Source: Kushneria konosiri (GTDB lineage Bacteria > Pseudomonadota > Gammaproteobacteria > Pseudomonadales > Halomonadaceae). From it: 64,000 bases of DNA. The position numbers were made by a program, and so were the translations under genes. Position 1 is the first letter of the stretch. Every line of letters starts with the position of its first letter. The stretch is from NCBI RefSeq assembly GCF_002155145.1, contig NZ_CP021323.1, positions 2,294,001-2,358,000 of the forward strand, read 5' to 3'. The notes beneath the pieces were generated by a model. The model had not been told where the DNA came from. It searched no databases and was given only the letters and a program-made list of their open reading frames with translations. Of this stretch, positions 61,805 through 64,000 are shown in pieces.

Positions 61805-63100
<1,296 letters not shown>

Positions 63101-63124: not shown

Positions 63125-63156
63125 AATCCGGCTACCCATGGTAGTCGGATTTTTTA
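63125..63156 (+). terminator. Intrinsic terminator of eno
   Basis: An 11-bp stem with one G-U pair (AATCCGGCTAC / GTAGTCGGATT), CCATG loop, then T6. Confidence 0.88.
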
Positions 63157-63363
63157 TGCCCGCCCTATATATTTGACGAATCCTGGACGATTACCTTGAC
63201 CCGATGGGGGGGCAGAACCCACCATATGGATATTCGAAGCGGCCCGATAACGGGCCTGAAGTTACCTTCCCTCTTAAAATATTGATTCGCCTGGTTTTTT
63301 TGCCAAAAGAAAACAAGGCGGTCGCTACTTCTCTCGATTAGCGCTTTTTTCAAAATCTTTTAA
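63157..63363. other. Non-coding eno-sRNA spacer
   Basis: No gene seen. It has two small hairpins: GGCCCG-ATAA-CGGGCC (63241-63256) and a weak one, CGCTA/TAGCG (63323-63343), followed by TTTTTT, which might end another short plus-strand RNA. A 62-codon minus-strand frame here does not look like protein. Confidence 0.4.
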
Positions 63364-63384
63364 TCGATCAGATATTCTGATCGA
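63364..63384. promoter_or_regulatory. Perfect 21-bp palindrome upstream of the sRNA candidate
   Basis: TCGATCAGA-TAT-TCTGATCGA, with perfect 9-bp arms. It sits where the promoter of the downstream RNA should be; TATTCT (63373-63378) could be its -10. It does not match the GacA consensus TGTAAG-N6-CTTACA. Confidence 0.55.
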
Positions 63385-63568
63385 GACTCAACTGACGGCG
63401 GCAAATGGATGGCCCCGCTCAGAACACCAACGACAAACTTGATTGATGGCGCGCTGGGTATCGGATGGATTCGATTTCTCCGCATGGATGCCGCCGATGG
63501 ATAGAGAGCCAACGAAATGGCTCAAGGACGCAGGATGCAAGGGCGGCCCCTATGGGCCGCCTTTTTTT
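63385..63568 (+). ncRNA. Candidate CsrA/RsmA-sequestering small RNA (RsmZ/CsrB-like)
   Basis: A gene-free stretch beside fdxA that ends in a strong terminator. It has exact ATGGAT at 63405, 63465, 63484 and 63497, and further GGA at 63463, 63526 and 63533: seven GGA in all. Three of the ATGGAT copies sit in short hairpin loops: ATCG-loop-CGAT (63460-63475), CGC-ATGGAT-GCCG (63481-63493) and GGC-loop-GCC (63400-63414). A fourth hairpin, GAGCC/GGCTC (63506-63523), lacks GGA. Repeated A-N-GGA in loops is the CsrA-binding signature; in Pseudomonas rsmZ also lies next to fdxA. The 5' end is an estimate. Confidence 0.6.
63540..63568 (+). terminator. Intrinsic terminator of the sRNA candidate
   Basis: A GC-rich stem AGGGCGGCCC / GGGCCGCCT with a CTAT loop and a T7 run. 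No coding gene on this strand precedes it within 400 nt. Confidence 0.9.
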
Positions 63569-63688
63569 ATGCGTAAAAGACAGCAATGCTGGCGCCAGGA
63601 TGCCACAAAAGCACGTGCGGCAGCCGCAGCAGGTGACATGAAAATCAGAGGGGGGAGCGGTCGGGGCAGCTTGGCCCCGATCCGAATA

Positions 63689-64000
63689 TCAGCGCACCAG
63701 CTTGTCGATCTTGCCGGGAACACCGTTCCACTCGTCGGCATCGGCCGGCGGATCGCTGCGCTCGTTGATGTTGGGCCACTGCTCGGCGAGATCGGCGTTG
63801 ATCTCGATAAACTTTTCCTGCCCTTCGGGCAGTTCGTCTTCCGAAAAAATGGCCTCGGCCGGACATTCCGGTTCGCACAGGGCACAGTCAATGCATTCGT
63901 CTGGATGAATGACCAGAAAATTGGGACCTTCATAGAAGCAGTCAACCGGGCAGACTTCCACGCAGTCCGTGTATTTACATTGAATGCAGTTCTCGGTGAC
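63689..64000 (-). CDS. fdxA: 7Fe ferredoxin FdxA (5' end outside window)
   Basis: Small electron carrier with a 3Fe-4S and a 4Fe-4S cluster. The window shows 103 residues, running from [27 protein letters not shown] to KIDKLVR; only about four N-terminal residues are cut off. Cluster ligands in [16 protein letters not shown] and [16 protein letters not shown] are complete. It converges on the small-RNA candidate. A hairpin (TCGGGGC/GCCCCGA, 63661-63680) just past the stop could end its transcript. Confidence 0.95.

Follow-up and report, generated by a model that had tools for sequence, protein, structure and literature searches.

The interval between the enolase gene eno and the ferredoxin gene fdxA of Kushneria konosiri very probably encodes an RNA of the CsrB/RsmZ type, at the place that rsmZ occupies in Pseudomonas. 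We consider it highly likely that this is a CsrA-sequestering small RNA, homologous to the GacA-box RNA that most genera of its family carry near eno and fdxA, and that Kushneria has lost both the GacS/GacA pair and the box and uses a GacA-independent promoter instead. Each A-N-GGA motif can bind one side of a CsrA dimer; RNAs rich in such motifs titrate CsrA. Control by GacS/GacA is typical of RsmZ, and this sensor pair switches such RNAs on. In the mechanism we propose, the RNA would present several A-N-GGA motifs, partly in hairpin loops, to CsrA dimers; CsrA would be sequestered and its mRNA targets freed, and the terminator would stop the RNA ahead of fdxA. In Kushneria, GacS/GacA would have been lost and the GacA box along with them. 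Because of this loss of GacS, GacA and the box, the RNA would be transcribed from a promoter that does not need GacA, most probably the conserved TTGACC-N18-CACCAT element at 63196-63225, to a length of ~335 nt. Without Gac, CsrA activity would be set by the strength of the new promoter, with the RNA acting either as a steady buffer or in response to some other signal.

A probable RNA gene with repeated ATGGAT motifs and a terminator between eno and fdxA

The window is the whole stretch of 64,000 nt of the K. konosiri genome that was analysed, and all coordinates refer to it. The locus contains the following features.

61805..63100, + strand: eno (enolase), the upstream neighbour; open reading frame of 431 aa, named as in the sequence-only reading, relatives by tblastn
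63125..63151, + strand: probable eno terminator, from a consensus scan
63388..63569, + strand: conserved core, probably of a CsrB/RsmZ-type RNA; match of covariance model R1, 58.3 bits
63405..63502, + strand: four ATGGAT (63405, 63465, 63484 and 63497), proposed CsrA-binding motifs, from a motif scan
63526..63535, + strand: two further single-stranded GGA (63526 and 63533), kept in 10/10 Kushneria genomes
63539..63567, + strand: Rho-independent terminator of the RNA, an 11-pair stem (63539-63564) plus T run, from a consensus scan; conservation drops sharply 3' of it
63689..64000, - strand: fdxA (ferredoxin), the convergent neighbour, extending beyond the window end; open reading frame with relatives in 119/121 family genomes

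A sequence-only reading of this DNA had proposed an RsmZ/CsrB-type RNA at 63385-63568 on the basis of four ATGGAT motifs, three further GGA and a strong terminator, with no gene on the same strand. The motif scan recovered all four ATGGAT and, besides them, GGA at 63463, 63526 and 63533. The terminator is likewise real, and the sole + strand open frame over the RNA, which starts at 63443, is mechanical, since it continues through the terminator and across fdxA. The 5' end given in that reading, 63385, is uncertain, and a fifth ATGGAT lies outside the interval, at 63226-63231. The RNA does adjoin fdxA, as claimed, and runs convergently with it, its terminator lying ~120 nt before the fdxA stop.

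Dinucleotide shuffles of the 184 nt separate the motif from its bare core. At least four ATGGAT were reached in 0/5000 shuffles, five A-N-GGA in 51/5000 and seven GGA in 2117/5000; thus the ATGGAT repetition is far above chance and the bare GGA count is not. When both strands were scanned, the locus was the sole place in the window with more than two ATGGAT per 150 nt.

Covariance models and Rfam

Two covariance models were used, namely R1, built from an alignment (A2) of 36 GacA-positive relatives with no Kushneria member, and R2, built from Kushneria itself. R1 matched the window at 63388-63569 (+) with 58.3 bits (genome-wide E 1.7e-13), and the next listed R1 match in the window genome scored 20.2 bits and covered the terminator part only. 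All ten Kushneria genomes had R1 matches. In 5/10 of them the match takes in the model only from position 57 or 66 onward, which leaves the homology between the 5' part of their core and that of the relatives less than firm. Across the family, R1 reached at least 45 bits in 87/121 genomes, the next lower score being 30.4. R2 at E 0.01 found a single place in the window genome. With one place for R2 and one strong place for R1, the idea of another such RNA in this genome was rejected, although a diverged sibling may exist.

The sequence-only reading had also looked to the PrrB_RsmZ model of Rfam (RF00166), and here it fared less well. At the gathering score no Rfam model matched the locus, PrrB_RsmZ included, and up to E 10 the locus drew nine weak matches, each falling far short of its threshold and none belonging to the CsrB/RsmZ group. 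RF00166, whose threshold is 44 bits, scored 32.9, 26.3 and 24.8 bits in three relatives, each time where the RNA is expected and on the expected strand; the last of these is another Kushneria genome (G001). As a control, the RNA beside fdxA in Pseudomonas guariconensis, on the strand opposite to it, scored 141.1 bits with RF00166, which bears out the earlier statement that rsmZ adjoins fdxA in Pseudomonas; the fdxA-rsmZ gene order is also reported in PMC9788540. In the same Rfam scan of 20 loci, the other pseudomonad locus, from Stutzerimonas (L124), gave no RsmZ match and a weak CsrC score of 19.9 bits. By Rfam's own threshold the locus RNA is outside RF00166, and by place and covariance model it is the counterpart of the GacA-box RNAs of its relatives. 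As far as sequence tells, the proposed class is supported by an RNA that is structured, conserved, GGA-displaying, terminated and found by a covariance model.

Distribution in the family

The sample comprised 121 family genomes from 24 genera, and 60 fdxA-downstream regions were fetched and combined with 30 from the search to give 90 loci. The fdxA gene was found in 119/121 genomes. A spacing of about 470-620 nt between eno and fdxA occurred in at least one fetched genome of 13/24 genera, and such gaps usually carry a GGA-rich stretch ending in a terminator. A GGA-rich core was located by a terminator finder in 61/90 loci; the finder missed L021 and L080 and misplaced L024, all three of which R1 went on to locate, and it found no core at several contig ends. 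No such RNA was found beside fdxA in the fetched genomes of genera g3, g4 (Salinicola), g14, g16, g17, g18, g22 and g24, or in G016 (g8), G036 (g5) and G066 (g19).

Several genera depart from the common arrangement. In g16 (L245/G024 and L246/G065), which has neither GacA nor the box, the RNA stays behind eno and fdxA lies 16-22 kb away. At four g5 loci (L054, L056, L088 and L100), the 700 nt leading up to the fdxA stop contain 16-32 GGA, and a GacA box and a terminator are present; eno is not adjacent and R1 scores poorly, at best 22.6 bits among g5 genomes, on these GGA-dense RNAs, which we read from their sequence as diverged RNAs of the same class. Larsenimonas suaedae (L061, G060) and the g8 genome G074 (L244), both GacA-negative, each carry four tandem R1 matches, of 53-68 and 47-63 bits, respectively; at L061 a good terminator follows only the last of the four units. 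These loci may encode CsrA sponges concatenated into one RNA, possibly some 870 nt long. In Cobetia (g7; L059, L060, L099 and L283-L285) a single GacA box lies ~916 nt before the terminator, with 40-41 GGA between the two in three genomes, possibly an unusually large CsrB-like RNA. The eno-fdxA gap of Salinicola (L050-L053, L092 and L093) is just 86-398 nt long and lacks the RNA; the Salinicola GacA is below the curated cut-off in 13/13 genomes and GacS was not found in the two tested, so that this genus may represent another route of Gac/Rsm circuit decay. At L077 (G026, g18), a TGCCACC tandem repeat fills most of the gap.

Joint absence of GacS/GacA and of the GacA box

The GacA family model matched 102/121 genomes at E 1e-50, 69/121 passing the curated cut-off and the other positives falling short of it while still reaching E 1e-50. 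At this level gacA was found in 0/10 Kushneria genomes, and it was absent also from g8 (Larsenimonas and kin, three genomes), g16 (two) and g10, g14, g17 and g18 (one each). Gene order gave the same picture. In Gac-positive relatives gacA precedes uvrC; uvrC was present in 30/30 compared genomes, and gacA stood beside it in 17/17 Gac-positive family genomes and 2/2 outgroups, and in 0/11 Gac-negative genomes, four Kushneria among them. BarA/GacS was found at E 1e-100 in 28/41 genomes and in 0/3 tested Kushneria, a loose test in which the curated cut-off was reached in 0/41. The csrA gene was present in 12/12 genomes tested, and the window genome has one copy (122 bits to NF002469) about 10 kb from the RNA.

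For the GacA box, we searched upstream of the RNA for TGTARG-N6-CYTACA (TGTAAG-N6-CTTACA) with at most two mismatches. The first set held 79 of the 87 R1-positive genomes plus 4/6 g5 genomes, which were taken for their GGA runs, that is, 68 Gac-positive and 15 Gac-negative genomes; the remaining eight R1-positive genomes, all Gac-positive, were added later. The other 30 genomes lay outside the test, namely the Gac-positive ones of g3 (8), g4 (13), g5 (2), g22, g24 and G066 of g19, and the Gac-negative G016 (g8), G022 (g14), G025 (g17) and G026 (g18). The upstream lengths searched vary by genome (257-1302 nt in the Gac-negative ones). A box was present in 76/76 Gac-positive genomes (68/68 in the first set, 8/8 added) and in 0/15 Gac-negative genomes that keep the RNA, where the best match had 3-5 mismatches, like most shuffles; 65/1660 shuffles held a box with at most two mismatches. 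In the window itself the best match had four mismatches. The distance from box to RNA 3' end was mostly steady, with a median of 364 nt and a range of 338-917 nt (63 genomes, at most one mismatch), the long ones being Cobetia.

The association has limits on both sides. R1 at 45 bits or more is missing from 4/19 Gac-negative genomes (G016, G022, G025 and G026), three of them without a match even at E 0.1, and G016 belongs to the same genus as Larsenimonas suaedae. Nor, as the Gac-positive genomes outside the box test show, does the presence of gacA guarantee an R1-visible RNA. A quick eno tree of 58 rows, made with no bootstrap, without g14 and g17 (no eno near fdxA there) and with two g16 rows dropped as too short, set the Gac-negative genera it included (g1, which is Kushneria, g8, g10 and g18) apart from the Gac-positive ones. 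In a uvrC tree of 30 rows the Gac-negative genera were early branches with moderate support, not one clade, and g14 fell among Gac-positive genera, so that at least three changes are needed. Because the Gac-negative genomes are kin, as these trees indicate, the association of box and gacA does not amount to 15 independent cases; box and activator vanished together in few evolutionary events.

Could GacA still control the RNA in Kushneria, with the response regulator and its site both so diverged that these searches missed them? A 110-bit LuxR-type paralogue, matched by the GacA model in G001 at E 1e-20, and a conserved element at 63176-63192, upstream of the promoter-like site in 7/10 Kushneria genomes, would suit such a scheme. 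We nevertheless regard it as unlikely, given that the window genome (G000) still had no match at E 1e-20, that gacA is missing beside uvrC in every one of the 11 Gac-negative genomes tested, and that the best box in 15/15 is no closer to the pattern than in most shuffles.

A candidate GacA-independent promoter

Our preferred reading, in which Gac control has been replaced, draws on the region upstream of the core.

63176..63192, + strand: ACGAATCCTGGACGATT, conserved element just 5' of the promoter-like site; possible binding site for a new activator
63196..63225, + strand: promoter-like TTGACC (63196-63201), 18 nt, CACCAT (63220-63225); candidate GacA-independent promoter, a conserved pattern
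63226..63387, + strand: probably transcribed as the 5' part of the RNA if the promoter-like site is used; pairwise identity 55-79% per 20 nt among seven close relatives
63365..63383, no strand assigned: inverted repeat CGATCAG-ATATT-CTGATCG, a possible RNA hairpin or operator

The pattern TTGACC-N17/18-CANNAT occurs in 10/10 Kushneria genomes, 373-400 nt before the RNA 3' end, and in both RNA-keeping g8 (Larsenimonas) genomes, ~905 nt before the 3' end and ahead of the four tandem R1 units. The pattern did not turn up in g10 or g16. Among the Gac-positive genomes, TTGA-N18-CACNNT was present in 26/68, with TTGAGA as its first block in 24 of these, at a distance of about 203-211 nt from the 3' end; none lay within the stretch allowed in the other 42/68. 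As a promoter, the site at 63196-63225 has a poor -10, and the consensus scan did not report it. If it is used, the transcript may start near 63232 and be about 335 nt long. With at most one mismatch, ACGAATCCTGGACGATT occurs once each in 7/10 Kushneria genomes, always at the RNA locus, and is absent from the other three; a new activator may bind there, or the element may simply belong to the promoter.

The 5' part carries motifs of its own in some species. GGA occur there in K. aurantia (L020) and in G001 and G007 (L043 and L044), and G001 has a hairpin, GGCGA-ACGGGA-TCGCC, soon after the promoter-like site. The inverted repeat was also tried as a genus-wide operator and rejected: CGATCAG-N5-CTGATCG has 2-7 sites per genome at no more than one mismatch, it is at the RNA in 5/10 Kushneria, and no regulon was shown.

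Taken over the family, we think it probable, if less firmly so than the role of the Kushneria RNA itself, that the main CsrA-sponge RNA outlived GacS/GacA and the box in Kushneria, in two Larsenimonas-group genomes, in g10 and in g16. It would have acquired a new promoter and a longer leader in Kushneria and Larsenimonas, and four tandem units in Larsenimonas, and the Csr circuit would answer a different input, perhaps through a regulator reading ACGAATCCTGGACGATT.

Structure and conservation of the RNA core

Two hairpins display or border the GGA motifs of the core.

63447..63496, + strand: two-level hairpin whose apical loop (ATCGG-ATGGAT-TCGAT, at about 63460-63474) displays one GGA and whose 3' internal strand displays another
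63506..63523, + strand: third hairpin, GAGCC/GGCTC; loop GGA in 9/10 Kushneria genomes, absent from the window copy

The minimum free energy fold of 63385-63568 had a z score of -2.38, and the longer form, 63230-63568, lay further below its shuffles (z -4.13). The A2 alignment folds into three helices plus the terminator. Of its 24 pairs, 19 show changes on both sides, that is, compensatory ones, and 97.2% of the paired cells can pair, compared with 81.4% in shuffles and 35-52.0% in slid controls. Both-side changes affect 11/11 pairs of helices 1 and 2 of the relatives and 6/6 pairs of helix 3. The sequence-only reading had looked to covariance in the eno-fdxA gaps of the family, and the 36 relatives supply it. 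Ten Kushneria genomes share the same architecture, with 3/32 pairs compensated; covariation within the genus says little, because most pairs are invariant there. That reading had also placed several GGA in hairpin loops, and this holds in part: the minimum free energy fold puts just some of them there, and the structure shared with the relatives has one in the apical loop and one in an internal strand, the others being single-stranded.

Across Kushneria, GGA is kept at four alignment positions in 10/10 genomes, at a fifth in 9/10 and at a sixth in 8/10. In seven close relatives, pairwise identity per 20 nt is 55-92% from 63158 to the terminator and 74-92% over 63438-63577, and it falls to 18-35% past the terminator (63578-63657). 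The window copy has seven GGA in the core, which is the lowest number, tied with G009, in a Kushneria range of 7-11, and its third-hairpin loop reads ACGAAA, the GGA having been lost there. This loss would fit a decaying relic, weakly or not transcribed since Gac was lost, whose CsrA sites are eroding, as would the four of 19 Gac-negative genomes without R1 at 45 bits or more, which suggest that some lineages have lost the RNA along with Gac. The steep drop in identity past the terminator, the four invariant GGA positions with hairpins and terminator kept, and the four tandem units in each of two g8 genomes all speak against decay, and we give the relic a slim chance, slightly below that of a diverged Gac system.

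Slimmest of all is the chance of a structured small RNA with another job, such as mRNA base-pairing or acting as a 3' partner of fdxA expression, in which the GGA would be incidental: its convergence with fdxA, the terminator so close to the fdxA stop and a bare GGA count no higher than in shuffles would suit it, but the ATGGAT repetition is matched by none of the 5000 shuffles, the GGA columns are among the most constant whereas the stems change by compensation, and the GacA boxes upstream in Gac-positive relatives tie the locus to the Csr/Rsm circuit.

Comparison with known systems

A CsrA-sequestering RNA that is independent of Gac fits into a literature that has partly anticipated it. In a 2017 prediction paper (PMC5568370), all species with a validated RsmA-regulating small RNA are said to have Gac, and RNAs of the same class are predicted in species without it. 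A 2020 review (PMC7366521) has a table in which the CsrA-mimic RNA is entered as unknown for Halomonas anticariensis, and a 2026 preprint modelling CsrA targets in Halomonas hydrothermalis leaves sponge RNAs to future work (PMC12889724). Literature pairing Kushneria with CsrA, or Halomonadaceae with CsrB, was not found in a search that most subscription journals lie outside. Gac-less predictions and the Gac-independent RsmV and RsmW are thus already known; what is new, as far as searched, is the loss of Gac beneath a conserved RNA across related genera. The locus offers, together with a covariance model, a candidate for the missing CsrA-mimic RNA in most genera of a halophile family. Related genera in which this RNA occurs alongside Gac or in its absence form a natural experiment, one that makes the rewiring of a sponge RNA after the loss of its activator directly testable, and in harmless bacteria.

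With CsrB and CsrC of enterobacteria (CsrC is RF00084), the RNA shares the logic of a CsrA sponge with multiple GGA. One relative (L065) scores 28.8 bits with RF00084, below its threshold of 61; unlike CsrB and CsrC, the window gives no match and its core holds fewer GGA (7). CsrR2 of Alcanivorax dieselolei, a CsrA-related small RNA adjoining a ferredoxin gene, is alike by its description in PMC9788540.

The closest parallel in arrangement is RsmZ/PrrB of Pseudomonas (RF00166), which is likewise adjacent to and convergent with fdxA, has several GGA in hairpins and linkers and ends in its own terminator; the Gac-positive relatives of Kushneria also have an upstream GacA box, like the rsmZ box described in PMC4353343. 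The Kushneria RNA differs in scoring below the Rfam gathering threshold, in having eno as its other neighbour, and in lacking the GacA box and GacS/GacA. If transcribed without GacA, it would resemble RsmV and RsmW of P. aeruginosa, RsmA-binding RNAs whose transcription, according to PMC7366521, is GacA-independent. Those RNAs, by the same source, are specific to P. aeruginosa and probably of independent origin, and their host is Gac-positive, whereas the RNA that would have been freed from Gac in Kushneria corresponds to the Gac-controlled one.
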